Shown here: positions 6,607 to 41,321 of the stretch, piece by piece
Position numbering within the stretch: position 1 is the first letter of the stretch
Layout of the letters: every line of letters begins with the position of its first letter
Source: Pararhizobium sp. IMCC3301
Lineage (GTDB): Bacteria > Pseudomonadota > Alphaproteobacteria > Rhizobiales > GCA-2746425
Length of the DNA: 64,000 nucleotides
Direction of reading: 5' to 3'
Assembly (NCBI RefSeq): GCF_030758315.1
Contig: NZ_CP132336.1
Span: 1,922,001 to 1,986,000, forward strand
Made by a program: the position numbers and the translations under genes
Notes under the pieces: model-generated
What the model was told of the DNA's origin: nothing
The model's input: the letters and a program-made list of their open reading frames with translations, nothing else
The model's database searches: none

Positions 6607-7434
6607 TCAGAGCCTTTCCGCGCCCTTGAGGAAAGGTTCTATTGCGCTGTTGAATGCCTCGGGCGCATTGATATTGGCCACATGAGCCGCGCCTTCGATG
6701 CTGTGGTAGCGGGCATCCGGTGTGGCGTCCGCCATGGCCTGCATCACCTCCGGGGCCGCGCCCTTGTCCAGCGCCCCGCCGACAAACAGCACCGGCACAG
6801 AGATCTCCGGCAGCCGGCGCAAATAATCCAGCCCCTGCAAGGCCCGGCAGCAGGCAATATATCCATTCCTGTCATTGCAAAGCACCATGTCGGCGATGTT
6901 CCGCGCGGCTTGCGGATTGGCAGCATGCCAATCCGGGGTCAGCCAGCTGGAAAGTGTGCCCTCGACAATTGCTTCAAGACCGCCGCGTTCCACCTTGGCA
7001 ATGCGCTCGTCCCACGACGTCCGAAATCCTTCCGGTGCGTCGGCTCTGGCATCGGCACAGACCAGCCGCTCAATCCGCTGGCTGTGATCAAGCGCAAGTC
7101 CAAGCCCGGTCATTCCGCCCATCGACAATCCCATGAAAGCGGCGGTTTCAATCTCCAGATGATCCAGCAATGCAATGACATCGCCAGTCAGATCATCAAA
7201 ATCATAAGGCCCTGTCGGGGCATCGCTGCCGCCATGTCCGCGCGTATCATAGCGCAGCACCTGAAATGTTGCAGTGAGCATCTCCATTTGCGGTGCCCAC
7301 ATCTCCAGTGTTGCACCCAGACTGTTGGACAGCACGATCCACGGGCCCACATCTGGGCCGTCGATCCGGTAATTTAGCCGGGACGCGCCAGGGCCTGTGC
7401 GGCCGGCGCGACCGCTGCGCGAGGGCTGCAGCAT
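6607..7434 (-). CDS. Alpha/beta hydrolase, 3-oxoadipate enol-lactonase (PcaD)-like
   Basis: A 275-residue cytosolic alpha/beta-hydrolase. The nucleophile elbow is GLSMGG (about residues 103-108), the oxyanion region SNSLGA lies near residue 38, the acid is likely in the FVGGALDKG segment, and the terminal His is in EGAAHVANI. The pattern RYDTRGHGGSDAP and overall length resemble PcaD-type enol-lactonases. Its ATG overlaps the stop of the upstream luciferase-like monooxygenase (TAATG), so it probably hydrolyses the lactone or ester made by that enzyme. The PcaD substrate itself is not supported, because no other beta-ketoadipate genes are present. Confidence 0.75.
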   Translation of the reverse strand: MLQPSRSGRAGRTGPGASRLNYRIDGPDVGPWIVLSNSLGATLEMWAPQMEMLTATFQVLRYDTRGHGGSDAPTGPYDFDDLTGDVIALLDHLEIETAAFMGLSMGGMTGLGLALDHSQRIERLVCADARADAPEGFRTSWDERIAKVERGGLEAIVEGTLSSWLTPDWHAANPQAARNIADMVLCNDRNGYIACCRALQGLDYLRRLPEISVPVLFVGGALDKGAAPEVMQAMADATPDARYHSIEGAAHVANINAPEAFNSAIEPFLKGAERL

Positions 7435-8543
7435 TATTCAGCCGCCATTGTGGTTTCCGCAGCGATGGCGTCATTGACCTGCGCCTTGACCTTCTCCGCC
7501 AGCAGTATCATCGAGCGCCGTCCCAGTTCCGGGTCAGCCCAGTCCTTTCCGGCATACAGCAATGTGCCGAAATCACCGACCTCTTCGCGGAATGCCAGCA
7601 GATCGTCGACAACCTTGTCGGGCGTACCCCAGATGATCAGCCGGTTGCAGATATCTTCCAGCGTCACGTCGTCATCGGGCTGGTCGCGATAGGCTTTGAA
7701 CAGTTCCAGCCGGTTATGCTTGCGCATTTTCGTCAGCAGCTGGCTGTAATAATAGACATAGGGGCTGTCCGGCCCGAGCGCATATTCCCGTGCGGTCGCC
7801 AGATCCTCGGCAACGAAAACGCTTTTGGCGACGCGCCAGTTGGCGGTGGAAACCTCGCGGCCGACCCGCTCACAACCCTCGACATATTTCGGCCAGTGGC
7901 TTGCGACCCATTGCGGCATCAGGAAATTCGCGCTGATCGGATCCCAACCGCGCGCGGCGGCTTCCGTCACGCCTTTGGAAAACGGCGCTACGGCGGTGAC
8001 GATAATCGGCGGGTGCGGGCGCTGCAGTGGTTTCGGCATGATGCCCTGGCCGATATCGGTCAGGCTCGTACGCTCGGTGGAAACCGTCCAGTATTTACCT
8101 TCAAGCTTGTAGGGCGAATCGCGCTTCCAGATTTCCAGAACCATATCGATGGCTTCCAGAAACATCTCGTTGCGGTTGGCATCCAGATTGCCGAACACTT
8201 CCGCATCCGAAGCCAGACCTCCTGGAGAAATCCCGAAATTGAACCGCCCGTCGAGCATGTGATCCAGCATCGCCACTTGCGCTGCAACCGTGGCCGGATG
8301 GCTGTTCGGCATATTCACCGTTCCGGTGCCCAGGCGAATCTGTTTTGTCGCCGCCGCCAGCGATGCGATAAACATCGTGCAACTGGTGATATTTTCCGCC
8401 TTGTCGGTGACATGCTCGCCGACATAGGCTTCTGTGAACCCCAGCTCATCGGCCAGCAGGAACGCCTCGCGGTCCTCCTGCAATGATGTGCGCCAGTCCT
8501 TTTCGACCGGATGTATCGGCATTGTGAAAAAGCCAAGTTCCAT
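7434..8543 (-). CDS. LLM-class flavin-dependent monooxygenase (limonene monooxygenase/luciferase-like)
   Basis: A 369-residue TIM-barrel flavoenzyme of the bacterial-luciferase superfamily: N-terminal MELGFFTMP strand, FTEAYVGEHV, IRLGTGTVNMPNSHPATVAAQVAMLD and the GISPGG phosphate-binding loop. An open frame runs further upstream, but the ATG at 8543 has a GGGGA ribosome site and matches the family start. Such enzymes use reduced FMN supplied by a separate reductase; the flavin reductase at 21537 is a candidate partner. The gene is divergent from a LysR regulator and coupled to a hydrolase, suggesting monooxygenation then hydrolysis of a ring. Confidence 0.85.
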   Translation of the reverse strand: MELGFFTMPIHPVEKDWRTSLQEDREAFLLADELGFTEAYVGEHVTDKAENITSCTMFIASLAAATKQIRLGTGTVNMPNSHPATVAAQVAMLDHMLDGRFNFGISPGGLASDAEVFGNLDANRNEMFLEAIDMVLEIWKRDSPYKLEGKYWTVSTERTSLTDIGQGIMPKPLQRPHPPIIVTAVAPFSKGVTEAAARGWDPISANFLMPQWVASHWPKYVEGCERVGREVSTANWRVAKSVFVAEDLATAREYALGPDSPYVYYYSQLLTKMRKHNRLELFKAYRDQPDDDVTLEDICNRLIIWGTPDKVVDDLLAFREEVGDFGTLLYAGKDWADPELGRRSMILLAEKVKAQVNDAIAAETTMAAE

Positions 8544-8602
8544 GATGAAATCCCCAGAATTTGTCGCGTCCTGACAGGTTGTGAGCGCGTGTTTTGCCGT
8601 TA

Positions 8603-8618
8603 TTACACTGCAGTGTAA
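8603..8618. promoter_or_regulatory. Perfect 16-bp palindrome TTACACTGCAGTGTAA
   Basis: Perfect 16-base palindrome, 60 bases upstream of the luciferase-like gene start (8543) and 75 upstream of the LysR start (8693). Its position in the divergent gap makes it a likely operator for the LysR regulator or for another dimeric regulator. Confidence 0.6.
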
Positions 8619-8642
8619 GCTGCGGATTGCCTTAAGCATAAT

Positions 8643-8668: not shown

Positions 8669-8692
8669 TTTTGTAATGGAGCGTCTTTGGCG

Positions 8693-9595
8693 ATGGTGAC
8701 TTTGCGGCAGATCAGATCGGTTGTGGCGGTTGCCGAAGAAGGCTCTTTCACCCGGGCGGCTGTCCGAGAGAATGCCACCCAGTCCGGTATTTCACAGCAC
8801 ATTGCTGCGGTTGAACATTTACTCGGCGTGGCGTTGTTTGAACGCACCAGCGACGGTGTGCAGATGACTCCTGCCGGGCGGCGCTATTACCGCCACGCCA
8901 TTGACGTGCTGCGCAATCTGGAAACCGCGGCCGGCGAGGCGCGCGCTGCCGGAACCGGCATTTCCGGAGATGTCCGGGCCGGGTTGATGCCTGCCTTCAC
9001 CCGTGCTGCCCTGGTGCCGCCGCTGCAGCGCGTCATCGCAGAACACCCGCAGATCAATATTCATATCATTGAGGGCTACAGCGGCACGCTGACTGAAATG
9101 GTGCGTGCCGGACAACTGGATTTTGCTCTTGTGCCGGCGTTTTCCGGAGGCGTCGGCCTGACCGTCAACCCACTCGCAAGAGACCGCGAAATGCTGGTGT
9201 CCGGTCCGCAAATGGGTCTGCAGCATGGCCAGCCGATCCGGCTTGCCGATCTGCCGCCGCTGAAAGTCATTGTGCCCTCCATCAGCAATGTGCGGCGTGG
9301 CAAGCTTGAAGAATATTTCGAAAGCCATGGCGGCCGGATTGAACGGCTGCTGGAAATGGATGCCATGAACGGAACCCTCGGCCTGGTCGCCCGGACCGAG
9401 TGGGTGGCAGTCCTGCCGGGCCTGATCTGCGTCCCCGATCAGACCGGCGACATACGCCGCATCAGCCCGATTGTCGATCCGCCGCTATATTCCGATTTTG
9501 TCGTCATTGAGCCGGCCCGCAAGCCGATTTCGCAACAGGGTCTGGTGTTTCTTCGCGAACTGCGTGAGGAAATCAACAGTCTGGTCGCCAGTTAA
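8693..9595 (+). CDS. LysR-family transcriptional regulator
   Basis: A 300-residue LysR regulator. The N-terminal winged helix-turn-helix is clear (VAVAEEGSFTRAAVRENATQ, with LGVALFERT), followed by a ligand-binding domain of the periplasmic type beginning near residue 90. The ATG at 8693 is chosen over the TTG two codons earlier. It is divergent from the monooxygenase-hydrolase pair and its stop abuts the TRAP large permease, so it may control either. Its own promoter gap holds two inverted repeats. Confidence 0.92.
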   Translation: MVTLRQIRSVVAVAEEGSFTRAAVRENATQSGISQHIAAVEHLLGVALFERTSDGVQMTPAGRRYYRHAIDVLRNLETAAGEARAAGTGISGDVRAGLMPAFTRAALVPPLQRVIAEHPQINIHIIEGYSGTLTEMVRAGQLDFALVPAFSGGVGLTVNPLARDREMLVSGPQMGLQHGQPIRLADLPPLKVIVPSISNVRRGKLEEYFESHGGRIERLLEMDAMNGTLGLVARTEWVAVLPGLICVPDQTGDIRRISPIVDPPLYSDFVVIEPARKPISQQGLVFLRELREEINSLVAS

Positions 9596-10912
9596 TCACA
9601 GCATCAATTTCGGCAGCCATGTCGCCAGCGCCGGTATGAACAGCACCAGCAGGGCGGCAACCAGAATCAGCAGGAAATAGGGTGTCGAACCTTTGAAAAT
9701 CTGTGCAAGGGTCACGGTCGGGTCAGGCACCGCACCCTTCACCGTATAAACCAGAAGACCAAAAGGCGGCGTCAGCAATCCTGCTTCGATCACCAGAATG
9801 CCAAAGATTGCAAAGGCAATCGGATCAATCCCGAAGGTCGCTGCAATTGGCGCGAAAATCGGCACTGTCAACAGGATGATCGACACCGAATCAATCAGCA
9901 TGCCGAGAATGATCCAGATTACCATCATCAGACCGATCACCAGGAACGGATCGACACCCATGCCCAGAAACAGCGCCTTGATGTAATTCACGGCGCCGCC
10001 AATGGCCAGCAGCCGCGAATACATCTGCGCCGTGATCAGCAGAAACATGATCGGCGCGGTGGTGCGCCCGGCCTGGAAGATGGCGTCGACAATCTCGCGC
10101 CAGCGCATGCCTTTGACGATACCAATCAGCAGCGCGCCGATGGCGCCAAATCCGGCGGCCTCGGTAGGTGTGAAAACACCGGTCCAGATGCCGCCAATGA
10201 CGAGCAGAATGAGGAACAGAATTCCAATGCCACCGATCAGCTCCGACTTGATCTCAGCCGGTGTCATTTCCACCGTATCGCCCTCGAAGGCAGGCGCAAT
10301 CTCCGGGTTGCGGATGGCGGCAATAATGACATAGGCGGAAAACAGAATTGCCAGAATGATACCCGGCACAATCCCGGCAATGAACAGCGCTCCGACACTC
10401 ATTTCCGTCAGAATAGCCCACACGATCAGCAGCACGCTGGGCGGTATCAGCATTCCCAGACAGGCAGAACCGGCTACTGCCCCCAGCGCAAAGGTCTGTT
10501 TGTATCCGACTTTTTTCATTTCAGGATAGGCGATCCGGGAAAAGGCCGCAGCCGCAGCGATGGATACACCGGTGACCGCTGCAAACACCGTGTTTCCGGC
10601 GATAGTTGCAATCGCAAGGCGTCCCGGAAGCCGCCGCAGGGCGCGGTCACAAACCCGGTAAAGGTCCGACGCGGCCCCTGATCGCGAAATGAAATCCCCC
10701 ATCAGCACAAACAGCGGAATAACAGCAAACACATCCTTTCGAATGGCTTCATATGCCGTATTGCCAAGAATGGAGAGTGCGGCCTCGGTACTGCCCAGCA
10801 TCAGATACACGCCCAGCGCCGAGCACAGGGCAAGCGAAATGCCGATATGCACGCCCAGCAGAATCAGAAAAATCAGCAGGCCTAACATCCAGAGCGCAAT
10901 ATCTCCACCCAT
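9596..10912 (-). CDS. TRAP transporter large permease (DctM type)
   Basis: A 438-residue inner-membrane protein with about 12 hydrophobic segments, the large subunit of a tripartite ATP-independent periplasmic transporter driven by an ion gradient. Recognisable blocks are VFAVIPLFVLMGDFIS, the GSACLGMLIPPSVLLIVWAI loop and TPPFGLLVYTVKG near the C-terminus. GAGGAG precedes the ATG. It lies 19 bases after the small permease in the same transcript. The binding protein gene is divergent at 11714, an arrangement that puts two promoters in the 11457-11713 gap. Confidence 0.93.
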   Translation of the reverse strand: MGGDIALWMLGLLIFLILLGVHIGISLALCSALGVYLMLGSTEAALSILGNTAYEAIRKDVFAVIPLFVLMGDFISRSGAASDLYRVCDRALRRLPGRLAIATIAGNTVFAAVTGVSIAAAAAFSRIAYPEMKKVGYKQTFALGAVAGSACLGMLIPPSVLLIVWAILTEMSVGALFIAGIVPGIILAILFSAYVIIAAIRNPEIAPAFEGDTVEMTPAEIKSELIGGIGILFLILLVIGGIWTGVFTPTEAAGFGAIGALLIGIVKGMRWREIVDAIFQAGRTTAPIMFLLITAQMYSRLLAIGGAVNYIKALFLGMGVDPFLVIGLMMVIWIILGMLIDSVSIILLTVPIFAPIAATFGIDPIAFAIFGILVIEAGLLTPPFGLLVYTVKGAVPDPTVTLAQIFKGSTPYFLLILVAALLVLFIPALATWLPKLML

Positions 10913-10931
10913 GGTTCAGATACTCCTCTGG

Positions 10932-11456
10932 TTACTTGAATTGGCCGCTTGTCAATGCGTGCGGCGCTTCCGTTTCGGCAAGAAGACGACCGGTCCAGTC
11001 GTAATAGATCATTGTCACATAGGCCCATGCTCCGAATACGGACATCAGCAAAACTGTGCCGCGCACCGGCCATGTCGGCACCCGCAACGAGCCTTCACCT
11101 TCATATTCTCCGATGCGATAGGCATCCTGGAACGCCGGCCAGGTGCTCCACACCAGCCCGAGAAACACGGCAAAGCCGAGCACTGCGCCAATGGTACGCA
11201 AAATTCTGCGCCCTCCTGCCGGCAGCGCGTCGGCAAAGATGGACGTCCTCAGCATCGAGCCGGAATAAATCGCCAGCGGCAATTGCAGAAATGTAATGGC
11301 GACCACGGAATTCTGGAGGATTTCCTTGGTTCCGGGAATCGGTTGTGACAGCAGGCTGCGACCGGTCACATCACCAAAGATGAGCAGCGCCAGACCCAAA
11401 GTCCAGAATGCCGATACGAGATGGACCGTTCTGGCAAATTTAATCGGGCCGCTCAT
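10932..11456 (-). CDS. TRAP transporter small permease (DctQ type)
   Basis: A 174-residue protein with four hydrophobic segments, the usual DctQ size. The ATG at 11456 follows GGGAGGA and gives the sequence MSGPIKFARTVH; the longer open frame adds an unlikely cysteine-rich tail. It forms the membrane complex with the DctM subunit immediately downstream. The typical TRAP small-subunit tryptophan-rich loop is present in WSTWPAFQDAY. Confidence 0.88.
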   Translation of the reverse strand: MSGPIKFARTVHLVSAFWTLGLALLIFGDVTGRSLLSQPIPGTKEILQNSVVAITFLQLPLAIYSGSMLRTSIFADALPAGGRRILRTIGAVLGFAVFLGLVWSTWPAFQDAYRIGEYEGEGSLRVPTWPVRGTVLLMSVFGAWAYVTMIYYDWTGRLLAETEAPHALTSGQFK

Positions 11457-11530
11457 AAGTCCTCCCAAACCCATGGAATTGCAATTGCGCCCGCAAGCTA
11501 ACTTCTGGCGAGGGCAAGTCAAGCGAGAAA

Positions 11531-11550
11531 GTTAGCAATCGATAAATAAG
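11531..11550. promoter_or_regulatory. Candidate TetR operator, copy 1
   Basis: GTTAGCAATCGATAAATAAG. Read on the minus strand it starts CTTATTTATCGAT, the same half-site as the palindromes at 16651 and 20944; the second half is degenerate. It lies 75 bases upstream of the DctQ start. Confidence 0.6.
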
Positions 11551-11612
11551 GAAATTAAATCAGACAAGCTGCCGCTTGACTGCGATCAAAAACTGTGGGG
11601 AAATGCAGTTAG

Positions 11613-11632
11613 TTTAGCAGTCGATAAATAAG
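11613..11632. promoter_or_regulatory. Candidate TetR operator, copy 2
   Basis: TTTAGCAGTCGATAAATAAG, 17 of 20 bases identical to copy 1 and in the same orientation, 82 bases away. It lies 82 bases upstream of the DctP start. The conserved core TCGATAAATAAG is shared with the other sites of the island. Confidence 0.6.
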
Positions 11633-11713
11633 AGGCTGCGTCTCACCCCGCAATGGCGCGTCCAACAGCGTCAGCCAACGGGGATCGTACCAAAACAACT
11701 CGGGAGGAAAAGA

Positions 11714-12793
11714 GTGTTGTTAAAAAAATCAGAACTGGCCACGGGCATCCTGGCCACAGCGTTCGCGTTTGCAGCCACAGCCGCCAGCGCCAGTGATACG
11801 ATCACACTGCGCATTGGTGCCGGCCATCCAAACGGACCTGCAGTCTATGTAGCAGATGTGGCAGATTATTTTGTCCCTGAAGTCAAACGCCGCGTCGCTG
11901 AGGAAACCGACCACACGATAGAATTTGTCGAAGCCTATGGCGGTGCCATTGCTGGTGTAGCCGAAACCCTTGAATCCGTGCAGAACGGCATTCTCGACAT
12001 CGGCGCCTATTGTTTCTGCTTTGAGCCGGCCAAACTGTTCCTGCACAATTTCCCTTATTACGCGCCCTTCGGCCCGCAGGATTCCGAGCAGGAAATGACT
12101 GCTGTTCGTGCGGTCTATGATGCCAATCCCTGGCTCACCGAAGTCTTTGAAAAAGAGTATGACCAAAAGCTGCTTGGCCTCCATGGCTGGGACAATTATC
12201 ACCTTGGCACTACCGATCCCTGGGATACGGCAGAAGATCTCAAAGGTGTTAAAATCGGCGGAGCCGGGCCCAATCTGCCATGGCTGGAATATGCCGGTGC
12301 CGTGCCCGTCCAATCGACATTGCCGGATGGCTATCTGTCCCTGTCGACCGGCGTCTACAATGGCTGGCTGATGTTCCCGTCGGCCTATCTCGGCTTTAAA
12401 TTCTACGAGCCCGCACCGAATTACACCTTGATCGGCTTTGGTGCCATGGGCGTCAATGGCCTGACCATCAACAGCAAATCCTATGCAAAACTGCCGGAAG
12501 ATGTTCAAAAGATCATCACTGAAGTTGGCCGGGGCTATGAGACCCAATCCGGCATCTCCAACAATGCGCGGCAGAAATCCGGACTGGAAGGTCTGGAGAA
12601 AGTCGGAGCCAACATCAAGAAACTGGGTCCTGAAGCCCGCGCCGGATGGGCGAAATCGCTGGCAGAATTCCCCAAACGCCAGGCTGAAGATGCCGACGGA
12701 CGCGGCATGCCGGGCACAGCAGTGATGCAATCCTACATCGATGCGGTCGATGCAACCGGATATGACTGGCCGTTCACCTATTCTCTGGAATAG
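11714..12793 (+). CDS. TRAP transporter periplasmic substrate-binding protein (DctP type)
   Basis: A 359-residue exported protein. The GTG start is preceded by GGGAGG at 11702-11707. A Sec signal peptide with cleavage after the TAASAS region (about residue 26) is followed by a DctP fold: ITLRIGAGHPNGPA, the EAYGGAIAG and LESVQNGILDIG blocks, and DLKGVKIGGAGP. The TRAP-family conserved arginine usually sits after the VKI strand; here that strand reads VKIGGAGPN, so the carboxylate contact may differ. It captures the substrate for the divergent DctQM permease and is followed by a strong terminator. Confidence 0.9.
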   Translation: MLLKKSELATGILATAFAFAATAASASDTITLRIGAGHPNGPAVYVADVADYFVPEVKRRVAEETDHTIEFVEAYGGAIAGVAETLESVQNGILDIGAYCFCFEPAKLFLHNFPYYAPFGPQDSEQEMTAVRAVYDANPWLTEVFEKEYDQKLLGLHGWDNYHLGTTDPWDTAEDLKGVKIGGAGPNLPWLEYAGAVPVQSTLPDGYLSLSTGVYNGWLMFPSAYLGFKFYEPAPNYTLIGFGAMGVNGLTINSKSYAKLPEDVQKIITEVGRGYETQSGISNNARQKSGLEGLEKVGANIKKLGPEARAGWAKSLAEFPKRQAEDADGRGMPGTAVMQSYIDAVDATGYDWPFTYSLE

Positions 12794-12811
12794 GCTTTAG
12801 CGAGCAAACGC

Positions 12812-12844
12812 AAAAAGGGCGATCCGGCAGGATCGCCCTTTTTT
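12812..12844. terminator. Bidirectional intrinsic terminator
   Basis: Perfect 14-bp stem AAAAAGGGCGATCC / GGATCGCCCTTTTT with a four-base loop, followed by a T run on the plus strand and preceded by an A run. It separates the DctP gene from the convergent molybdenum hydroxylase operon. Confidence 0.95.
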
Positions 12845-12868
12845 ATAAACAACCGTGCGACCGGAAAA

Positions 12869-15247
12869 TCAGATCCGGCCCAGCGCCTTCAACACCCGTT
12901 CCGGCGTCATCGGCATCTGGTACAGGCTGGCATCAAGCGGGCGCAGCGCATCATTGACCGCGTTCAGAATCGCAGCCGGCGCACCACCGGTTCCTGCCTC
13001 ACCGGCCCCTTTCGCACCAAGGGTCGAGGTTTTCGTCGGTGTCTCGACATGGCCGACGACGATATCCGGCATTTCGGCCGCCATCGGCACCAGATAGTCC
13101 GCCATTGTTGCATTCAGCATCTGACCGTCTTCAGAATAGATGCATTCTTCATACAGTGCCCCGCCAATGCCCTGCACCACGCCGCCGCGCACCTGTTCGT
13201 CAACCAGTTGCGGATTGATCACCCGGCCGCAATCTTCCACCGCCCAGAATTTCAGCACTTTGACAAAGCCGGTTTCAATGTCGACTTCGACATGGGCCGC
13301 CATCGCCCCATTGGTGAACACAAAGGGAAAATCCGTCACCCGGTAATGCCGAGTCGCCACAAGTTCCGGCTTCAGATCAGATGGCAGTTCATTGCCGCGA
13401 TAATACACCATCCGCCCCAGATCGCTCAGCGCCATGCGTGAAGTCTCTGTGCCAAGATCGACAATTTCGCCGGCCTGAATGTCGAGTTTTGCAGCCTCGC
13501 TCTGCAGAATCACAGCGGCCACATCCAGCACCTGCTGCTTCAGCGCATAGGCGGCCTGCAACATGGCTTCACCGCCAATGCCGGCACCGCGCGACGCCCA
13601 GGTTCCACCACCATAAGGCACGGTCGCCGTGTCACCCGTGGTCACCCTGACCCGCTCAATATCGACGCCGAACACGCCGGCTGCAATCTGCGCCATAATG
13701 GCATTGGTGCCCTGGCCCTGTTCGGTGATGGAGGAGGAAACATGCAGCGCACCGCCGGCATCCAGCCGCACAGTGGCACCGTCCTGACTGGCAATCGCAG
13801 CACCGCCAGCGCCATAGAACATCGGGCTTGGATTGGTCACTTCGACCATCGATACCAGACCGATTCCACGATAGATGCCTTGCGCACGCAAACATTGCTG
13901 TTCCGCCCGCAACTCGTCATAGCCCATCGTCTCAACGAGTTTTTCCAGCGTCTTGTGATGTGACAGATCATCGAGTTTCATGCCGGAGGTTGAGGTGCAG
14001 GGATAGGCGTCATCGAAAATCAGATTGTGACGCCGCATCTCCACCACATCCATCCCGATTTTCCGCGCCGCATCTTCCAGCAGGCCATCAGCCACTGCCA
14101 TCGCGATGGGGTGGCCCACAGCCCGGTACTGGCAGGTCAGATTCTTGTTCTGGAACACCACCTGGCCATGGGCGCGGTAATGCGCGATCCGATAAGGCGC
14201 ACCGGTCAGGTTGAGGACCTGATTGCACTCAATGGCGCTGGTTCTGGGATACATCGAATACGGCCCGATCCCGGTCAGATCAAGAAAATCCAGAGCCACG
14301 ATGGTGCCGTCTGCTTGGACCGCCATTTTCGCCGTTACCACATGGTCGCGGGCGTGAATGTCGGTGACAAAACTCTCATTGCGGTCGGCGATAAATTTGA
14401 CCGGACGCTTCAGTAGCCTGGCTGCGGCCGCAGTCGCAATCTCGTCGCCATAGGTATGAATCTTGATGCCGAATGAGCCGCCGACATCATGTGACATCAC
14501 CCGGACATTCTCCTCCGGCAGATCGAGATGATTCGACAGAATAAACTGCATCATGTGCGGCGCCTGGCCGGAATACCAAAAGCTCATCCGGTTTTCCGAG
14601 GGGTCGTAATCCACCACCGCGACACGCGGTTCCAGCGTCACACCGGTGTGACGGCCGAAGCGGAATTTGCGTTCCACAATGGTCACATCATCACGTGCAA
14701 AGGCGGCCTCGACATCGCCGGCCGTGACGGTCCGCTCCCAGGCAAGATTACTGCCCAGTTCTTCGTGGATCACAACCGCATCGGGTCCCAGGGCGGCCTC
14801 CATGTCACAGGCCGTCGGCAATGGATCGAGATCCAGCTCGACGAGCGCCGCCGCATCCTCTGCTATCGCCCGGCTTTGCGCCACCACCATCACCAGCGGC
14901 TCGCCCTGCCAGCGCGCCACATCCAGCGCAAGCGGCATTTGCGGCGGTGAACGCAGACCGGCCATATGGGTCAGCGTGCCGACATAGGGCTTGACGTGCG
15001 GCACCAGATCGGTGCCGCGATAGACCGCGATAACGCCGGGCAATTCCTGTGCGGCAGTCAAATCAATATCGATGATTCTGGCATGCGCATAGGGCGAGCG
15101 CACAAAGGCGGCATGAACCATCCTCGGCAGTTGCAGATCGTCGACATACCTGCCGCGGCCTTCCAGAAGACGGCGCGCATCGGCGCGCGGCACGGCGCGC
15201 CCGATATAGGAGTTCGGCTTGTCGAATATGGAAAGCGGACCACTCAT
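12869..15247 (-). CDS. Molybdenum hydroxylase large subunit (xanthine dehydrogenase/CoxL family)
   Basis: A 792-residue catalytic subunit binding molybdopterin-cytosine-dinucleotide. The N-terminal hammerhead domain (RRLLEGRGRYVDD) is followed by two molybdopterin domains. Visible motifs are GGSFGIK (256-262), the glutamine-rich loop EQGQGTN, and GAKGAGEAG with the catalytic base Glu750. The active-site loop reads CQYRAVGHP (372-380): neither the AYRCSFR of true CO dehydrogenases nor the AYRGAGR of form II enzymes. It is last of a medium-small-large operon. Hydroxylation of an N-heteroaromatic ring or oxidation of an aldehyde is the expected activity; CO oxidation is unlikely. Confidence 0.9.
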   Translation of the reverse strand: MSGPLSIFDKPNSYIGRAVPRADARRLLEGRGRYVDDLQLPRMVHAAFVRSPYAHARIIDIDLTAAQELPGVIAVYRGTDLVPHVKPYVGTLTHMAGLRSPPQMPLALDVARWQGEPLVMVVAQSRAIAEDAAALVELDLDPLPTACDMEAALGPDAVVIHEELGSNLAWERTVTAGDVEAAFARDDVTIVERKFRFGRHTGVTLEPRVAVVDYDPSENRMSFWYSGQAPHMMQFILSNHLDLPEENVRVMSHDVGGSFGIKIHTYGDEIATAAAARLLKRPVKFIADRNESFVTDIHARDHVVTAKMAVQADGTIVALDFLDLTGIGPYSMYPRTSAIECNQVLNLTGAPYRIAHYRAHGQVVFQNKNLTCQYRAVGHPIAMAVADGLLEDAARKIGMDVVEMRRHNLIFDDAYPCTSTSGMKLDDLSHHKTLEKLVETMGYDELRAEQQCLRAQGIYRGIGLVSMVEVTNPSPMFYGAGGAAIASQDGATVRLDAGGALHVSSSITEQGQGTNAIMAQIAAGVFGVDIERVRVTTGDTATVPYGGGTWASRGAGIGGEAMLQAAYALKQQVLDVAAVILQSEAAKLDIQAGEIVDLGTETSRMALSDLGRMVYYRGNELPSDLKPELVATRHYRVTDFPFVFTNGAMAAHVEVDIETGFVKVLKFWAVEDCGRVINPQLVDEQVRGGVVQGIGGALYEECIYSEDGQMLNATMADYLVPMAAEMPDIVVGHVETPTKTSTLGAKGAGEAGTGGAPAAILNAVNDALRPLDASLYQMPMTPERVLKALGRI

Positions 15248-15723
15248 GCTGCACCTCGTTGTTCAATAACGTCGCAAATGGCGTCGACAATCGATTGATA
15301 GCCGGTGCAGCGACAGTAATTTCCGGAGATATGATCGCGGATTGCAACCCGGTCGGCAGAACCGCCGGCCTCGATATATTCCAGAGCACTGGCCAGCATG
15401 CCCGGCGTGCAATAACCGCATTGCAGGGCATTGCGCATCTGAAATGCAGTGCGCAGTTCATCGCCACGCCCGCTGTCGGCCAGACCTTCCACAGTGGTCA
15501 CCGTAGCGCCATCGGCCTGTACCGCCAGCATCAGGCATCCCCGCACCATGCTGCCATTGACTTCAAGTGTGCAGGCACCGCAGACACCATGTTCACATCC
15601 CACATGGGAACCTGTCAGTCCAACCTCATTGCGCAGAAAATCCACCAGGTTGAGACGCACCGGAACATTCGCTGTAATCTGCTCACCATTCACCAACAGG
15701 GTGATGTTGTTGGTTTGTGTCAT
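15244..15723 (-). CDS. Molybdenum hydroxylase [2Fe-2S] subunit (CoxS family)
   Basis: A 159-residue iron-sulfur subunit with both clusters complete: the plant-ferredoxin-type ligands CEHGVCGAC (C43, C48, C51) plus C63, and the second cluster CGYC (about 102-105) with CRC (about 137-139). It transfers electrons from the molybdenum site to FAD. The stop overlaps the large-subunit ATG by four bases, and the gene follows the FAD subunit by four bases, so the three subunits are made together. Confidence 0.95.
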   Translation of the reverse strand: MTQTNNITLLVNGEQITANVPVRLNLVDFLRNEVGLTGSHVGCEHGVCGACTLEVNGSMVRGCLMLAVQADGATVTTVEGLADSGRGDELRTAFQMRNALQCGYCTPGMLASALEYIEAGGSADRVAIRDHISGNYCRCTGYQSIVDAICDVIEQRGAA

Positions 15724-15727
15724 CGTC

Positions 15728-16573
15728 TCACAACTCCGCTAAAGCGCGTCTTAAGACCACGCCGGACAAATGTTTCTTGGTTTCCGGCCGGGCATTGAGA
15801 TCGCCCATGAAATCGATTTCGGCAAGGCTTGCCACTGCCCTGTCGATCGAGGCGGCATCGTCGGATCTGCTTCCGCACATTGCCGCTTCCGCGCCCGCAG
15901 CACGCACCGCCCTGTCGCTGACCGCGAAAAAGGCAATCCGGCAGCTCTCAATATCTGCTTTCCCGCGCGCCGCCACGGCGACGCCGGACATGGCATAATC
16001 GCCATGACGCCGCGCCAGTTCATAAAACGCAAACCGCTGCTCCGGCCGGGCTTTCGGAATCACAATTTCGGTGACCAGTTCGCCCTCTTCCAGGGCGGTT
16101 TCATAAATGCCGAGAAAAAAATCATCGGCACTGAAAATCTTTTCGCCGCTTTGCCCGAGCACCTTGATCCTGGCATCCAGTACCATCAGCAAGGCCGGCA
16201 TTTCTGCGGCCGGATCGGCCAGCGAGACACTGCCTCCGATGGTACCCCGGTTGCGGATCGCGGCATGGGCGATATGTGGCAGCGCCATCGCCATCAGTGG
16301 AATGTGCTGCGCGACATCCTGCGAGACCTGCAATTCGGCATAGCGTGTCATCGCACCAATGATGACATCATCGCCGTCCAGCCGGATGCCCTTAAGCGTC
16401 TCGATATCATTCAGATCAACCAGCAGTCCCGGCTCGGCCATACGGAAATTCATCATCGGCATCAGGCTCTGGCCACCGGCCAGAACCATGGCCTCATCTC
16501 CGTTGTCACACAGTAATGCCAAAGCCTCTTCCAGCGATTGCGGGCGTTCATATCTGAAATCAGATGCTTTCAT
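15728..16573 (-). CDS. Molybdenum hydroxylase FAD subunit (CoxM family)
   Basis: A 281-residue FAD-binding subunit of the vanillyl-alcohol-oxidase fold. Key segments are AGGQSLMPMMNFRMAEP, the first FAD motif, and TIGGSVSLADPAAEMPA, the second. The ATG at 16573 gives the family-typical MKASDFRYERPQSLEEAL start; the open frame reaches 16627. It is the first gene of the operon, and a perfect inverted repeat shared with other genes of the island lies 78 bases upstream. Confidence 0.92.
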   Translation of the reverse strand: MKASDFRYERPQSLEEALALLCDNGDEAMVLAGGQSLMPMMNFRMAEPGLLVDLNDIETLKGIRLDGDDVIIGAMTRYAELQVSQDVAQHIPLMAMALPHIAHAAIRNRGTIGGSVSLADPAAEMPALLMVLDARIKVLGQSGEKIFSADDFFLGIYETALEEGELVTEIVIPKARPEQRFAFYELARRHGDYAMSGVAVAARGKADIESCRIAFFAVSDRAVRAAGAEAAMCGSRSDDAASIDRAVASLAEIDFMGDLNARPETKKHLSGVVLRRALAEL

Positions 16574-16650
16574 GCAGCGTTCCCCGTCCAGCACCGAGCC
16601 AGGCCGTGCAACAACACGGAAGCTCATAGCGGCCTCTTGACTTGAGACCC

Positions 16651-16684
16651 CATTTCTTATTTATCAATCTATAAATAAGAAATG
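16651..16684. promoter_or_regulatory. Candidate TetR operator, copy 3 (perfect 14-bp arms)
   Basis: Arms CATTTCTTATTTAT (16651-16664) and ATAAATAAGAAATG (16671-16684) are exact reverse complements around the centre CAATCT. This is the best-conserved copy of the island element. It sits upstream of the molybdenum hydroxylase operon. There is no T run expected of a terminator in a coding context, and the same core recurs in front of unrelated genes, so an operator is the better reading. Confidence 0.8.
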
Positions 16685-16874
16685 CAAGGAAGGGAAGGGA
16701 TCAACATCACTCGCACCCGGACAATTCCTGTCTGTTGACATCATACGCATTGCGGTTGGCAGATCCGATTCAGTGACAAACCGCCAATTTGACCGCCTCA
16801 TACGGGGCAGCGGCACTGCCCTGCCAAACCGGCCACTGCCAAACCGGCCTTTTTGAATTTTTATTGGAGACGAA
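16685..16874. other. Gene-free gap upstream of peroxiredoxin
   Basis: Between the operator and the peroxiredoxin start there is no plausible gene. The gap contains a TTGACA-like element at about 16735 and, just before the gene, a tandem duplication. It presumably carries the peroxiredoxin promoter. Confidence 0.5.
16821..16850 (+). repeat. 15-bp tandem direct repeat
   Basis: CTGCCAAACCGGCC occurs twice in tandem with a 15-base period (16821-16835, 16836-16850), 25 bases upstream of the peroxiredoxin ATG. Probably a small slippage duplication in the 5' leader. Confidence 0.85.
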
Positions 16875-17402
16875 ATGATGAGCAAGAAACTGACACCTGA
16901 ACAACAGGCCCCTGCCTTGTCGCTGCCCACAGTGGATGGCGGCAACTGGTCGCTGGCCGACCAGACGCCTGAGACTTTCACCATGGTTGTGTTTTACCGG
17001 GGCTATCATTGTCCGGTCTGCAAGGCCTATCTCGACAAACTCGCCAAAATCGCCACAGCCTACGCGGAGGCCGGTTTCTCGGTCGTGGCCGTATCCATGG
17101 ACAACGAAGAACGCGCTGCCAAATCCGTTGCTGAATGGGGTCTCAGCGGATTTCCCGTTGCCTACGGGCTGAGTGTTGAAACTGCCAGGGATTGGGGTCT
17201 GTGGATTTCAAAATCCATCAATGAAAATGAGGCCAATATTTTCTGCGAGCCCGGCCTGTTCTGGGTGCGCCCGGACGGCCGGCTCTATCTGATCGATATT
17301 TCAAATATGCCATGGGCGCGGCCGGATCTGGAGTTCCTTCACTCCAAACTCCCGTTTGTGATTGAAAAGGGTTATCCTGCACGCGGCACCTATACCGGTT
17401 AA
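16875..17402 (+). CDS. Peroxiredoxin-like (AhpC/TSA family) thiol peroxidase
   Basis: A 175-residue thioredoxin-fold protein with a redox-active CPVC motif (YHCPVCKAYLDKL, near residues 48-54) and the family pattern of substrate-removal of peroxides (VVAVSMDNEERA). No signal peptide. TTGGAGA precedes the ATG. It lies within the oxygenase island, between the Mo hydroxylase and the OsmC-TetR pair, and would handle peroxide released by flavin and molybdenum enzymes. Whether it is a peroxidase or a disulfide reductase cannot be decided by sequence reading alone. Confidence 0.8.
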   Translation: MMSKKLTPEQQAPALSLPTVDGGNWSLADQTPETFTMVVFYRGYHCPVCKAYLDKLAKIATAYAEAGFSVVAVSMDNEERAAKSVAEWGLSGFPVAYGLSVETARDWGLWISKSINENEANIFCEPGLFWVRPDGRLYLIDISNMPWARPDLEFLHSKLPFVIEKGYPARGTYTG

Positions 17403-17412
17403 AGCACATGAC

Positions 17413-17440
17413 AAGGGGCCTGATACAGATCAGGCCCCTT
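17413..17440. terminator. Bidirectional intrinsic terminator overlapping TetR 3' end
   Basis: Perfect 12-bp stem AAGGGGCCTGAT / ATCAGGCCCCTT with loop ACAG. It follows the peroxiredoxin stop, and its right arm encodes the last codons of the convergent TetR gene. Confidence 0.85.
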
Positions 17441-18116
17441 CGCCCAACCGTGCCAGTTGAGCAATAAACCCATCCAGCGCCGCCTCGATCATGAAGGATC
17501 TATCCTCGAGGCTCGGAGCACGTTCATAGACCAGCTTTAAAACACCGAAATAGAATATGCCGCCATGCATCACCCAGGCATAATCGATCTCGCGCTCTGT
17601 CGCGTCGCGTGGCGCAAAACCTGCCTCGTGGCGGCATTCCCGGACAATCGGTTCCAGAATGCGCTGGCGCACAAGTTTCAGATAGCGGGCGTTGATATCA
17701 ACGCCTTTCAGACCGGAAAACATAAAAATCCGCATCCAGTCACGGTTGAACACCACATCCGTATAGGCGTGGTAGAATTCCACCACCCGGTCCCGCACCG
17801 GACGCGACCGGTCCGCAAGCAGGTTTTCCCATTCGCTGCGCCAGCGGTTCAGATAAACCAGATTGTAGACCTCTAAAATCAGATCATCCTTGCTGGGGAA
17901 ATACCGGTACAGCAACGGCTGGGTCACTCCCAGACGACGCGCCAGTTCCCGGGTCGAACTCTGAAACCCTTCCTCGGCAAAAAACTCGACGGCCTTGGAA
18001 ATAAACTCCTGCCGTCTGGCTTCAGATGAAAGCCGGCGCCGCTTGGGCGGTTTTTGCCCCTCGGACGATTTGTTGGCCGGCAGGTTCGTGGCCGTTTCAT
18101 CCGCACTGCTTGTCAC
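17430..18116 (-). CDS. TetR-family transcriptional regulator
   Basis: A 228-residue TetR/AcrR repressor. After a charged N-terminal arm the helix-turn-helix occupies about residues 45-85 (AVEFFAEEGF, TRELARRLGVTQPLLYRYFPSKDDL). The C-terminal half is an all-helical ligand/dimerisation domain. The GTG at 18116 is chosen because AAGGAGG lies seven bases before it and it starts two bases after the OsmC stop. It is the only TetR protein in the window and sits in the middle of five similar palindromic elements, so it is the prime candidate for binding them and repressing its own operon. Confidence 0.9.
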   Translation of the reverse strand: MTSSADETATNLPANKSSEGQKPPKRRRLSSEARRQEFISKAVEFFAEEGFQSSTRELARRLGVTQPLLYRYFPSKDDLILEVYNLVYLNRWRSEWENLLADRSRPVRDRVVEFYHAYTDVVFNRDWMRIFMFSGLKGVDINARYLKLVRQRILEPIVRECRHEAGFAPRDATEREIDYAWVMHGGIFYFGVLKLVYERAPSLEDRSFMIEAALDGFIAQLARLGEGA

Positions 18117-18118
18117 TT

Positions 18119-18610
18119 TCAGGCCTCCTTCCATTCACCGTCAATTTTTAACCGGTGGCCCACTGCCAGGCCCTGCGCCAGTGTTTGCTCGATGAAGCAA
18201 CCTTTCTTGGCATGATTGAGTAAGGTCTTTAACTCTGCTTCGCTCGCAGGGCTATCTATATCCACATCCAGATCAAAACCGACCGGGGCGGTCACATAAG
18301 GCTCAGACCCTTCCTGCTCGCCCTTCCAGTGCAGCTTTGCATGGACCTCAACTGAAACGAGTTCAATCCGCAGCCGTTTAGCAAACGCCCTGATCTGGGT
18401 CATCAGGCAGCCGGTCAGAGCGGCTGTAAACAGCGCCAGAGGCGGCGGTGCCGTGCCATCTCCACCATGAAACGGCCCTTCATCGGTAGCCAGTTCAAAG
18501 CTCTCTTTCATCATGGGCCATTCCACTGAAATATCATTGCGCATTTTGCCGCTGCTGCGCCCTGTTCCCTCGAATACCACGTCAAATCGCTTCTTTCCGG
18601 TTTCGCTCAT
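18119..18610 (-). CDS. OsmC/Ohr-family protein
   Basis: A 163-residue OsmC-like protein. The two cysteines of the family are present in ALTGCLMTQIRAFAKRL and KKGCFIEQTLAQG, so a thiol-dependent hydroperoxidase activity is possible. It starts with an ATG at 18610 and is co-transcribed with the TetR gene. An operator-like element lies about 50 bases upstream. In catabolic clusters OsmC proteins often accompany flavin enzymes, possibly for organic hydroperoxide removal. Confidence 0.87.
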   Translation of the reverse strand: MSETGKKRFDVVFEGTGRSSGKMRNDISVEWPMMKESFELATDEGPFHGGDGTAPPPLALFTAALTGCLMTQIRAFAKRLRIELVSVEVHAKLHWKGEQEGSEPYVTAPVGFDLDVDIDSPASEAELKTLLNHAKKGCFIEQTLAQGLAVGHRLKIDGEWKEA

Positions 18611-18658
18611 ACAATACTCCTGATCAAAAAATGCTGGCGTTAGTATTTACCTTATTCT

Positions 18659-18680
18659 TTATTTATCGTCTGATAAACAC
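18659..18680. promoter_or_regulatory. Candidate TetR operator, copy 4
   Basis: Left half TTATTTAT (18659-18666) and centre CGTCTG match the other copies; the right half ATAAACAC matches six of eight positions. An inner perfect repeat TTTATC-GTCT-GATAAA is also present. It lies between OsmC-TetR and the divergent cyclase gene. Confidence 0.6.
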
Positions 18681-18730
18681 ATGAAAGGGATTCGTTGAAA
18701 TTCCTTCAGCACCAAGGCGGGAGTCCAATC

Positions 18731-19687
18731 ATGACGAAACTTACCAGACAGGACATTTACGACACGGCCAAACAGCTCTCAAATTGGGGGCGCTGGGGCG
18801 ATGATGACCAGATCGGCACGTTGAACAATATCTCGCCGCAGGACATCGTCGATGCAGCCGGACTGATCCGCAAGGGCAAGACCTTTGCGCTTGGATTGTC
18901 GCTGAAAGAAAAAATCCAGAGCGGCCTGTTCGGGGGCCGCTGGAACCTCATTCATCAAATGCTGGCCACTGGCACCGATGCGGTAGCGGGCGTTCAGGAT
19001 GGCGACGGCAAGGCCTATCTGCGGTATGCTGACGACGCCATAAATGTGCCCTGCCAGGGTTCGACCCAGTGGGATGCGCTGTGTCACATTTTTCTCGATG
19101 ACAAAATGTATAATGGTTTTGCCGCAACTGAAGTAACGGTCAACGGCGCAGGCAAACTGGGCATCGAGAATGTCCGCGACAAAATGGTCGGGCGCGGCGT
19201 GTTGCTTGATATCGCCCGCTGGAAAGGCGTGTCCTCACTTGATGACGGCTATCCCATCACCAATGCGGATCTGGATGAATGCGCAAAGGCACAGGGCGTG
19301 GAGGTGCGCAAAGGTGACTTTGTAATTGTCCGCACCGGACATCAGGAGCGTTGCCTGGCCTCCGGCGACTGGACCGGATATGCTGGCGGAGATGCTCCGG
19401 GGCTGGCCTTTGAGACCGCCCACTGGATCAAAAACTACGATATTGCGGCGATCTGTGCTGATACCTGGGGATGTGAAGTGCGCCCCAATGAGACCGATGA
19501 GGCAAATCAGCCCTGGCACTGGGTTGTGATCCCGGCAATTGGCATTTCCATGGGGGAAATCTTCTATCTTAAGGACTTGGCCGAGGACTGCGCCGAAGAT
19601 GGTGTGTATGAGTTTTTCTTCACCGCACCACCGCTGCATGTTCCCGGCGCTGCCGGATCTCCGATAAATCCGCAGGCGATCAAATAG
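18731..19687 (+). CDS. Cyclase-family metal-dependent hydrolase (kynurenine formamidase/isatin hydrolase-like)
   Basis: A 318-residue protein of the PF04199-type cyclase family, which hydrolyses cyclic or formyl amides and lactones using a divalent metal. The metal-site segment reads GSTQWDALCH rather than the HxGTHxDxxxH of kynurenine formamidases, so one His ligand is Gln while Asp and the distal His remain; this GTQWD form is typical of the longer, about 320-residue branch. The ATG at 18731 has GGGAG upstream and removes a 12-residue unlikely extension. Divergent from OsmC-TetR, with a shared operator region. Ring opening or amide hydrolysis downstream of the oxygenases is a plausible role. 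Confidence 0.8.
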   Translation: MTKLTRQDIYDTAKQLSNWGRWGDDDQIGTLNNISPQDIVDAAGLIRKGKTFALGLSLKEKIQSGLFGGRWNLIHQMLATGTDAVAGVQDGDGKAYLRYADDAINVPCQGSTQWDALCHIFLDDKMYNGFAATEVTVNGAGKLGIENVRDKMVGRGVLLDIARWKGVSSLDDGYPITNADLDECAKAQGVEVRKGDFVIVRTGHQERCLASGDWTGYAGGDAPGLAFETAHWIKNYDIAAICADTWGCEVRPNETDEANQPWHWVVIPAIGISMGEIFYLKDLAEDCAEDGVYEFFFTAPPLHVPGAAGSPINPQAIK

Positions 19688-19715
19688 TGCGCGATGCGGG
19701 CTTGAGCACCTGAAA

Positions 19716-20912
19716 TCAGCCGAAATCGGCGATAGCGGTTTTCCGCATGATTTCTTCAAGATTGGGGTTTGACCTGCCATCGCGGTTTGTCCCGGTGGCA
19801 GGGTCTTCAAAAATGAAGCGGCCGAGTTTGCGTGAGCGTTCAAACGCCGCTTTTGCCGCCGGTACCCGCTCGGCAGAATAGGCCTCCAGTGCGTCTTCCA
19901 CTGAGCCCTGCTCAAGCTGGCGGGCAAGGCAGAGCGCATCACTGGCAGCCTTTGTCACCCCCATCCCGACATGGGGTCGGGCTACACATGCTGCATCCCC
20001 GGCAAGCGCAACCCGGCCTTCCGCCATGCGGGGAGAGTGATGATCATAGATCGGCGTAAAGAACGGACGCTCGCTTTGCGCCAGCACCTCGACGAAAGCC
20101 TGTGGCAGAATTTCACCCGCTTCGCGTTCCATTCGCTGCAGCACCGCTTCGCGAATAAGCGGCGGTGGAATCGAGAGTGCATGGTGCCGGCCGCTCTCGT
20201 CAGTCAGCATGTCCGCCAGCTGCTGCGCAGATACAGGCGCATACCAGACAAAATTATACCGTCTGTGACCGGGACGCAGATCATTGCCAGCACCGGCGAT
20301 CGGATAGCCCACAATCTGTGTGCCGGTGGGTAGAAAAAACCCGAATTTATCAAAAATCAGTTTGAGCAGACCGGTGCTGAAATCGGCTTCATCTGCCAGC
20401 GCGCGCCACACCACATAGCCGGAATATTGCGGCGTGATCTGAGGCAGCATCCAGCTGCGCACCACCGAGCGGAAACCATCACAGCCGACTAGAATGTCGG
20501 CCTGCGCGGTCTCACCATTTTCAAACCGGACTTCCACTCCGTCTTCTGACTGGCTGTAGCCGGTCACGGCGCAGCCAAGATGATGATGTTCATCCGGCAA
20601 AATACGGCGCAGCAACTGATGAATGCGGTCCCATGAGGTGACAGTCTGGAAATAGGGCAGGCTGGCCACCTCGCCGCCTTGCAGATCAAACGCCACACGC
20701 TCATGCACATCCACGCCCAGAGCTTCACTGCCGGCACCAACATTGTTCAAGGCATCGATCAGGATGTCATGTGTGACAATTCCTGCACCCCTGCCGGCCA
20801 ATTCAACCGAACTGCGTTCAAAAACGTCAACCTGCCATCCATGCGCACGCAGAGCGGCAGCGGCAAACAGCCCGCCGATGGAACCACCACAGATTATCGC
20901 CGTTCGTGTCAC
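19716..20912 (-). CDS. FAD-dependent aromatic monooxygenase (2,6-dihydroxypyridine 3-monooxygenase-like)
   Basis: A 398-residue class A flavoprotein hydroxylase. It has the N-terminal FAD motif ICGGSIGGLFAA, the DG region LVGCDGFRSVVR and the second FAD motif VALAGDAACVARPHVG. The blocks GRGAGIVTHDIL and PIAGAGNDLRPGHRRYNFVWY resemble the 2,6-dihydroxypyridine 3-monooxygenase branch more than salicylate hydroxylases. A GTG at 20912 preceded by AGGTGG is preferred to the ATG at 20927, which lacks a ribosome site. Located beside a molybdenum hydroxylase, it could act on a hydroxylated N-heterocycle, as in nicotine or nicotinate routes, though the full pathway is not recognisable. Confidence 0.83.
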   Translation of the reverse strand: MTRTAIICGGSIGGLFAAAALRAHGWQVDVFERSSVELAGRGAGIVTHDILIDALNNVGAGSEALGVDVHERVAFDLQGGEVASLPYFQTVTSWDRIHQLLRRILPDEHHHLGCAVTGYSQSEDGVEVRFENGETAQADILVGCDGFRSVVRSWMLPQITPQYSGYVVWRALADEADFSTGLLKLIFDKFGFFLPTGTQIVGYPIAGAGNDLRPGHRRYNFVWYAPVSAQQLADMLTDESGRHHALSIPPPLIREAVLQRMEREAGEILPQAFVEVLAQSERPFFTPIYDHHSPRMAEGRVALAGDAACVARPHVGMGVTKAASDALCLARQLEQGSVEDALEAYSAERVPAAKAAFERSRKLGRFIFEDPATGTNRDGRSNPNLEEIMRKTAIADFG

Positions 20913-20943
20913 AGAACCACCTTTCATCAGGGGCTGGAAATTT

Positions 20944-20967
20944 ATTATTTATCGATCTATAAATAAT
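20944..20967. promoter_or_regulatory. Candidate TetR operator, copy 5 (perfect 9-bp arms)
   Basis: Arms ATTATTTAT (20944-20952) and ATAAATAAT (20959-20967) flank the centre CGATCT. It sits in the divergent gap between the flavin monooxygenase and the cupin, 31 and 24 bases from their starts. Confidence 0.78.
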
Positions 20968-20991: not shown

Positions 20992-21399
20992 ATGGCCACA
21001 CCCAAACCAAAACCACAGGATGGATTTTCGTCTCCGCACTGGACGCCGGAACTTGTTAGCGAGCTCAAAAGCGCAGCCCGCAACGGCAATGTCGGATCAC
21101 GACTTGTCAGCGAAAGTGATCGTGCCAGAGTCTGGTTGATTGAGATGCAGCCTGGTGAGCGGCTGCCGTTCCACACCCATGTGCTGGATTATTTCTGGGT
21201 CGCGACATCACGGGGACAAGCGCGCTCGCGCTATGCCGACGGCAAGGTGGCCGAAGTCAGCTATGATGTGGGAGACACCAAGCACTTCCACTTTGGTGCC
21301 GGTGAATCGATGACCCATGATCTGGAAAATATCGGCGATACGGTGCTGACATTCACCACAGTTGAATATCTCGATGAAGGCAAGGAGCCGCTTTTGTAG
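20992..21399 (+). CDS. Small cupin-domain protein
   Basis: A 135-residue single-domain cupin. The first metal motif is recognisable in PGERLPFHTHVLDYFWV (two His plus a downstream acid), and the second in FHFGAGESMTHDLENIGD. GAAGGA precedes the ATG. Divergent from the flavin monooxygenase and presumably under the same operator. It could be a metal-dependent isomerase, a dioxygenase fragment or a binding protein; no substrate can be proposed. Confidence 0.75.
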   Translation: MATPKPKPQDGFSSPHWTPELVSELKSAARNGNVGSRLVSESDRARVWLIEMQPGERLPFHTHVLDYFWVATSRGQARSRYADGKVAEVSYDVGDTKHFHFGAGESMTHDLENIGDTVLTFTTVEYLDEGKEPLL

Positions 21400-25065: not shown

Positions 25066-26034
25066 TCAGCCGGTTTGCATCAGGATCTGCTTCCAGATCG
25101 AAACTTCATCAAACAGGGTAAATTCACGGCGCAGCCCATAAGGTCCGAACTCGGCATGGCTGAAGCCCATCACATAGACATTTGCCCCGGTTGGCTTGCC
25201 GAACATGCCGGTGCCCTCATGGCTGCCATGCAGGCTCCAGCGGATCGCCGCCCGCGGCGACAGCATCGCATCTTCCCGGCCGATCTGATGATCAATGCTG
25301 AATTTGGCATTGGGAAACGAAGAGCGCAGGCTCATCCACAGCCATTCCGCATCGGCCCAGGAATGGCCGGTGACGCCGCTGGGATGTTCGATTTGGCAGG
25401 CACGGTCATAGCGGGCGCGGATCACCGTCATATCCTTGTCCATGATGGCGTTCAAAATCTCGCCGAACCGGGCACCCCATTCATTGTCGTTACCCTTGCC
25501 ATGGTAGCCGCCATCGACATCCTGATCCGGAGTGAAAGGCCGCACACAAGTCTCGGCACCACCTTCCCGTGCAATCAGCTGACGGGCAAAGGCTTTCGGC
25601 TTCATGCCAAGCTGGCGCACCAGCGCGGCATTGTCCCGTGTCAGCCATTCATCATAGATGACATCATCTTTGGCGGCGCAATCGGCAATGGCCCGCACCG
25701 CAAAGGATTTCCCCGTCGGTTTTCCGAAATAGCCGTAGCCGCTATGCGTCCCGGTGGTCATCAGCCGGTGAGACGACAGGAAGCCGTCCTTCTCATTACC
25801 CGACCAGATCACATCCTCGCCAAGCAGTTCACGGTCGGGAAACTCCGCCAGTGTCGCCAGCGTGCCATTGATGGTCGCCTGATTGCCAATCGAAATCCCC
25901 GATGGCATCCGCACCGGTATCCTCTCACCATAGGTGTGGTTGAGGGTCGCGATGCCGCGGTCTTCCCAGATTTCCTTGGTGACCCCGATAATATAATCCG
26001 GCAAGTCTTTCCAGCGGTTTGAAAAACCCTTCAT
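25066..26034 (-). CDS. Ester cyclase / SnoaL-like protein with two tandem domains
   Basis: A 322-residue protein made of two SnoaL/NTF2-like cone folds. The first covers about residues 10-140 and the second 175-310; both contain the SHR/HEGTGMFGKPTG-type segment (GYGYFGKPTGKSF and GTGMFGKPTGANV) that marks the ester-cyclase subgroup. The ATG at 26034 overlaps the LacI stop (ATGA) and has GAAGGA upstream. It accompanies the HisD-type dehydrogenase and NTF2-like protein. The role, possibly lactone or isomer handling of an oxidised polyol, is unknown. Confidence 0.75.
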   Translation of the reverse strand: MKGFSNRWKDLPDYIIGVTKEIWEDRGIATLNHTYGERIPVRMPSGISIGNQATINGTLATLAEFPDRELLGEDVIWSGNEKDGFLSSHRLMTTGTHSGYGYFGKPTGKSFAVRAIADCAAKDDVIYDEWLTRDNAALVRQLGMKPKAFARQLIAREGGAETCVRPFTPDQDVDGGYHGKGNDNEWGARFGEILNAIMDKDMTVIRARYDRACQIEHPSGVTGHSWADAEWLWMSLRSSFPNAKFSIDHQIGREDAMLSPRAAIRWSLHGSHEGTGMFGKPTGANVYVMGFSHAEFGPYGLRREFTLFDEVSIWKQILMQTG

Positions 26035-27053: not shown

Positions 27054-27110
27054 CAATTCCGCTCTGTTCTGCAACCGCTTTGCGGCAGCATTGTCTGATA
27101 TGCATCCGCT

Positions 27111-41320: not shown

Positions 41321-41321
41321 C

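Follow-up and report, generated by a model that had tools for sequence, protein, structure and literature searches.

A predicted TetR regulon with five palindromic operators in an island of transport and oxidation genes

Genes of the island and their likely function

The window, a stretch of 64,000 nucleotides from Pararhizobium sp. IMCC3301, contains an island of genes for a TRAP transporter, several oxidative enzymes and a TetR-family regulator, with two further regulator genes nearby:

8687-9595, LysR regulator, near the island
9596..11522, minus strand, TRAP transporter subunits DctM (9596-10912) and DctQ (10932-11522), by homology
11714..12793, plus strand, TRAP solute-binding protein DctP, by Pfam
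12869..16627, minus strand, molybdenum hydroxylase with large (12869-15247), FeS (15244-15723) and FAD (15728-16627) subunits, by Pfam and homology
16875..17402, plus strand, AhpC/TSA-like peroxiredoxin, in the same gap as the hydroxylase, by Pfam
17430..18134, minus strand, TetR-family regulator with recognition helix VTQPLLYRYF, by Pfam TetR_N and predicted TetR-like fold
18119..18610, minus strand, OsmC-like protein
18695..19687, plus strand, cyclase-family hydrolase, by Pfam Cyclase and PDB 5ibz
19716..20927, minus strand, FAD monooxygenase, by Pfam, best PDB match 2vou
20992..21399, plus strand, small cupin, by PDB cupin 9u8n
26031-27074, LacI regulator, near the island

Judged from sequence, DctQ more likely starts nearer 11456 and the cyclase at the ATG at 18731. 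The molybdenum hydroxylase is nearest to quinoline 2-oxidoreductase, while the FAD monooxygenase matches 2vou (2,6-dihydroxypyridine hydroxylase, DHPH) with an E value of 9e-49 and exceeds the cut-off of the PRK07236 subfamily (443 vs. 333). The small cupin had no Pfam family at 0.001. As a guess from these similarities, the substrate of the island is perhaps N-heteroaromatic; for a homarine-pathway, pyridine or same-gene-set cluster, there was no match among the open-licence PMC papers listed.

The initial annotation had reported a single TetR gene in the window, which is correct, and the complete genome holds 11. The TetR_N DNA-binding domain of its product scored 53.7 bits against a Pfam cut-off of 24, and the predicted model has an all-helical TetR-like fold (mean pLDDT 82) whose top Foldseek hits belong to the TetR family (E 2e-5). 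Five relatives of our first list were left out of the fold alignment, including L019, excluded for a stop codon in its reference. The 3′ end of osmC overlaps the start of tetR, so osmC-tetR is probably one operon.

Several gene groups around the island were also observed. A luciferase-like monooxygenase and a hydrolase lie at 6607-8639, and their homologs follow the TRAP genes in four related loci (L017, L018, L022, and L023). A histidinol-dehydrogenase-like gene (27111-28418) stands next to SnoaL-like genes and the LacI regulator; it has homologs of 67-79% identity in some related loci, and in one genome (G145, locus L140) such a gene is preceded by a pair of operator-like sites separated by 28 bp. 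Genes for UxuA, glucuronate isomerase, mannitol dehydrogenase, a GFO/IDH protein and a GntR regulator at 35652-42653 look like a cluster for uronate breakdown.

Operator sites in the window and in the genome

Five palindromic sites lie in four divergent promoter gaps of the island; mismatches below are to the initially annotated core, TTATTTAT-N6-ATAAATAA, and E values are from an operator model trained on sites of other species:

11528..11549, minus strand, operator O2, on the dctQM (TRAP_Q) side; E 0.0013, 4 mismatches
11610..11631, plus strand, operator O1, on the dctP (TRAP_P) side; E 0.0029, 3 mismatches
16657..16678, minus strand, operator before the molybdenum hydroxylase operon; core exact
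18659..18680, plus strand, operator between osmC-tetR and the cyclase gene; 2 mismatches
20945..20966, minus strand, operator between the FAD monooxygenase and cupin genes; core exact

Scanning the window for the core with up to three mismatches recovered the sites at 16657 (0), 20945 (0), 18659 (2), and 11610 (3), four matches where shuffled windows gave an expectation of 0.03. All five members of the annotated five-copy palindrome are real, with the qualification that the exact core occurs only at 16657 and 20945 and the other three carry two, three, and four mismatches, so that the five operators are unequal copies. The arms of 14 bp at the hydroxylase site and of 9 bp at the monooxygenase site, each pair around a 6-bp spacer, are present in the sequence as first described, and no further convincing copy was found in the 64 kb, the next window match after the five places having an E value of 6.1. 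Refinement with sites from other species gave a 22-bp operator, TTATTTATC-N4-GATAAATAA; the palindrome of the annotated core stands, but a 4-bp spacer describes it better than one of 6 bp. In each TRAP operator one arm is good (GATAAATAA) and the other poor. The poor arm reads TTAGC instead of TTATC, not only in the window but in nearly every relative shown, and the weak arm itself therefore seems to be conserved.

The genome is complete in one contig of 4.58 Mb and was searched with a sequence-only model trained on 41 sites from other species, with the window left out. The many random copies that the initial annotation had named as refuting the regulon did not appear: among the 150 of 631 first-look candidates that were scored, the model found five places (E 0.0003-0.04), all in the island, and the next match had an E value of 1.0. 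A candidate sixth site (genome position 2295608) scored E = 1.0 and was rejected; its place, near base 2109 of locus L055, is inside two overlapping ORFs, and the ORF upstream reads like a resolvase, as judged without a search. With up to two mismatches, the refined pattern has three genomic occurrences, none of them outside the island, and its reversed control has none. The looser N6 core with up to three mismatches occurs at 12 places (four in the island) compared with eight for its reversed control, so the weak TRAP sites are inconspicuous by the core pattern alone.

Conservation of the operator and its change with the recognition helix

Relatives of the window TetR (41-64% identity) were located in 39 loci by scanning GTDB genomes. 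Of 27 mapped loci that share the recognition helix of the window TetR, 24 contain operator sites with up to four mismatches, 74 in all, and three (L027, L036, and L051) have none; near-identical contigs (L020/L021/L022, L017/L018/L023, and L034/L035) are counted separately here. The sites fall in the gaps TRAP_P/TRAP_Q (20), AhpC/molybdenum hydroxylase (14), OsmC/cyclase (13), cyclase/FlavRed (11), FAD monooxygenase/cupin (4, one in each of the four loci holding that pair), FlavRed/ABC gene (4), TetR/cyclase (3), and others (5). None of the 74 lies within a mapped gene, where mapping covers homologs of 27 window genes. The recurrence of the same operator in the same promoters of related bacteria makes the control circuit look real, and of an ordinary kind. 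The loci L020, L021, and L022 have an identical TetR ligand domain on contigs labeled Rhodospirillaceae and Rhodobacteraceae, and one of these labels may be a binning error.

Within the order, the refined pattern with up to two mismatches was found in 35 of 397 genomes, our own included. Many of the 35 are small and their matches are likely due to chance, and a reversed control pattern also matches in several genomes of the order. Among 29 flanks that were read, homologs of operator-flanked island genes were present in three (L085, L091, and L107), a histidinol-dehydrogenase-like gene in one (L098), and only an ABC or LacI match in two (L092 and L101). Six other genomes encode a TetR that is 54% or more identical to the window protein, with up to seven candidates scored per genome. 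In three of these (G282, G036, and G145) an operator site lies within 6 kb of the related tetR, and in G167 tetR shares its contig with a site some 100 kb away that precedes a molybdenum hydroxylase homolog; no site was found in G375 or G386. An extra operator-like site in G036 (contig C759, L139, base 1334) lies away from tetR, with no window-gene homolog beside it.

That the sites are merely chance AT-rich palindromes might be suspected from these matches in small genomes of one family of the order and from those of the reversed control, but we consider it very improbable given the excess over shuffled windows, the lack of any other strong site in the genome and the conservation of the places in relatives.

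The operator also changes with the regulator. By recognition helix, 70 TetR relatives fall into class A (QPLLYRYF type, 40), class B (QSL type, 19), class C (TH type, 10), and one other. A de novo dyad count upstream of tetR returned GACCA-N2-TGGTC in 10/10 class C loci and GATCA-N2-TGATC in 6/19 class B loci (shuffles ≤3 for each); in class A, TTATC-N4-GATAA occurred in only 5/40 and ranked third, because osmC or other genes often separate tetR from its promoter. When the best operator match within 1.5 kb was taken instead, 27 of the 40 class A loci favored the A operator (three tied between A and B, one favored C, and nine were weak), 16 of the 19 class B loci favored B (three weak), and eight of the 10 class C loci favored C, all eight at two mismatches (two weak). 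Shuffled regions reached two mismatches in 2/70 (A), 2/70 (B), and 6/70 (C), and zero or one never.

Since the consensus letters had been picked on these 70 loci, 17 further plasmid loci were used as a test; 21 of 57 plasmid records, spanning organisms, had been taken, of which four (L056-L059) were in the rule-defining set. The 11 test loci with a class A helix had four clean A sites, six hybrids and one locus without a site. Two QSLLF helices went with B-type operators (0 and 2 mismatches), as did the one QPLLF helix, and three TH-type helices with one C site, one C-like palindrome and no site, respectively. The hybrid operators (L116, L126, L128, L131, L132, and L134) combine one TTTATC-type and one TGATC-type arm. 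The QPLLFRYF regulator is encoded on a Methylobacterium plasmid (L136), where its locus adjoins a molybdenum hydroxylase and is near uraD (urate breakdown).

On a ligand-domain tree, built from few columns and with some long branches, about five class changes are needed compared with a shuffled mean of 31.8, and class A is split into one part of 42 rows and another of 10. Few independent events therefore lie behind the association of helix and operator, which as read from these sequences appears clear.

This joint change bears on whether the palindrome could instead belong to the LysR or the LacI regulator, with tetR merely a neighbor. Both genes are near the island and LysR homologs occur in several related loci, yet such ownership would not account for an operator that changes with the TetR helix, and several operator loci (e.g., L014, L016, L018, L019, L024, and L025) have no LysR homolog within about 10 kb on each side; we regard it as unlikely.

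Position at promoters and the predicted regulon

In relatives, most operators appear to lie over or beside RNA polymerase sites. The -35 patterns were read by eye, chosen after the alignments had been viewed and then counted. In 12/17 loci (0.6 expected) the start of the cyclase operator is 16-18 nt past the first base of a TTGAC, a pattern that the cyclase promoter of the window does not show; TTGAC precedes the dctP operator in 12/13 (0.7 expected), and TTG[ACT] precedes the hydroxylase operator in 11/15 (2.0 expected). These three positions suit repression. For the monooxygenase operator, a -35 pattern in 2/5 loci (1.0 expected) is no evidence. The dctQ-side operator is unusual in its position, ending 2-5 nt upstream of a TTGA -35 in 12/12 loci, the window included (0.4 expected). 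In the window, TTGACT lies just downstream of O2 (11522-11517, minus strand) and upstream of O1 (11576-11581).

The upstream position of O2, and the bracketing of the dctP promoter by O1 and O2, raise the question of whether TetR has a dual role, repressing the enzyme promoters while, from O2, activating dctQM or looping with O1. We think this improbable: repression from O2 is also possible, the promoter elements were read by eye, and the O1-O2 spacing keeps no strict helical phase. Looping by strict helical phase was accordingly set aside as unsupported: 10 loci have spacings of 73-91 bp, and L028 has one of 138 bp. A fuller version, which we rate slightly higher but still unlikely, would join such a dual TetR (enzyme repressor, and activator or looper at the permease promoter) to a helix code in which Q to H corresponds to TTGATC to TTGACC, and QPLLY to QSLxF or QPLLF corresponds to TTTATC to TTGATC.

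The reading we prefer, at a probability of roughly 0.8, is that the one TetR (17430-18134) is a local catabolic repressor of the island. TetR would bind TTATTTATC-N4-GATAAATAA at the five 22-bp operators in four divergent promoter gaps and would thereby silence the TRAP importer, the molybdenum hydroxylase, the cyclase and the flavin monooxygenase/cupin pair, as well as its own osmC-tetR operon, until the substrate or an intermediate derived from it (perhaps N-heteroaromatic) released the repressor. Whether the AhpC/TSA-like gene is under the hydroxylase-gap operator is uncertain. From the sites, island restriction, conservation, helix-linked operator change and promoter position in relatives established here, we infer TetR-operator binding, the direction of control, the ligand and the pathway. 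The proposal of one TetR regulon in the initial annotation is supported by the shared promoter gaps, the genome restriction and the helix-linked operator change; its description of the joined genes as otherwise unrelated is not, as they look like one uptake and oxidation island.

The predicted regulon is new, although the kind of circuit is already known. Among the open-licence PMC papers listed, none matched the regulon by title or abstract, and the operator sequence hit two unrelated papers. The consensus of RutR (pyrimidine utilisation) is TTGACCANNTGGTCAA, which has the geometry of the window operator and matches the class C operator. The window protein, however, falls below the cut-off of the NCBIfam RutR model (30.3 against 368 bits) and does not qualify as a RutR equivalog, its operator arms are TTTATC rather than TTGACC, and the gene sets differ. 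The helix of the tetracycline-resistance TetR contains QP-LY and tetO has arms TATC...GATA, both as in the window, and the two proteins share family and predicted fold. In contrast, the window protein reaches 27.8 bits with the TetR model, whose cut-off is 265, its operator spacing is even (N4) whereas that of tetO is odd, and it is predicted to control catabolism rather than efflux. RutR of Escherichia coli is described as a TetR-family catabolic repressor with a palindrome of about 16 bp, and the island it controls as including a luciferase-like monooxygenase (PMC10891134). For the IclR family, operators have likewise been derived from their conservation, and residues of the helix have been correlated with bases of the operator (PMC8222616); that work concerns another regulator family, whereas ours concerns one TetR subfamily with three operator classes. 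PheR, discussed as an IclR-family regulator (PMC13273656), was dropped as a comparison.

The three helix/operator classes form a small natural data set on how TetR-family proteins recognise DNA. The island, otherwise uncharacterised, occurs in numerous alphaproteobacterial genomes and metagenome bins, and the predicted tie, through one regulator and five operators, between a transporter and four enzyme sets should help to find its substrate.
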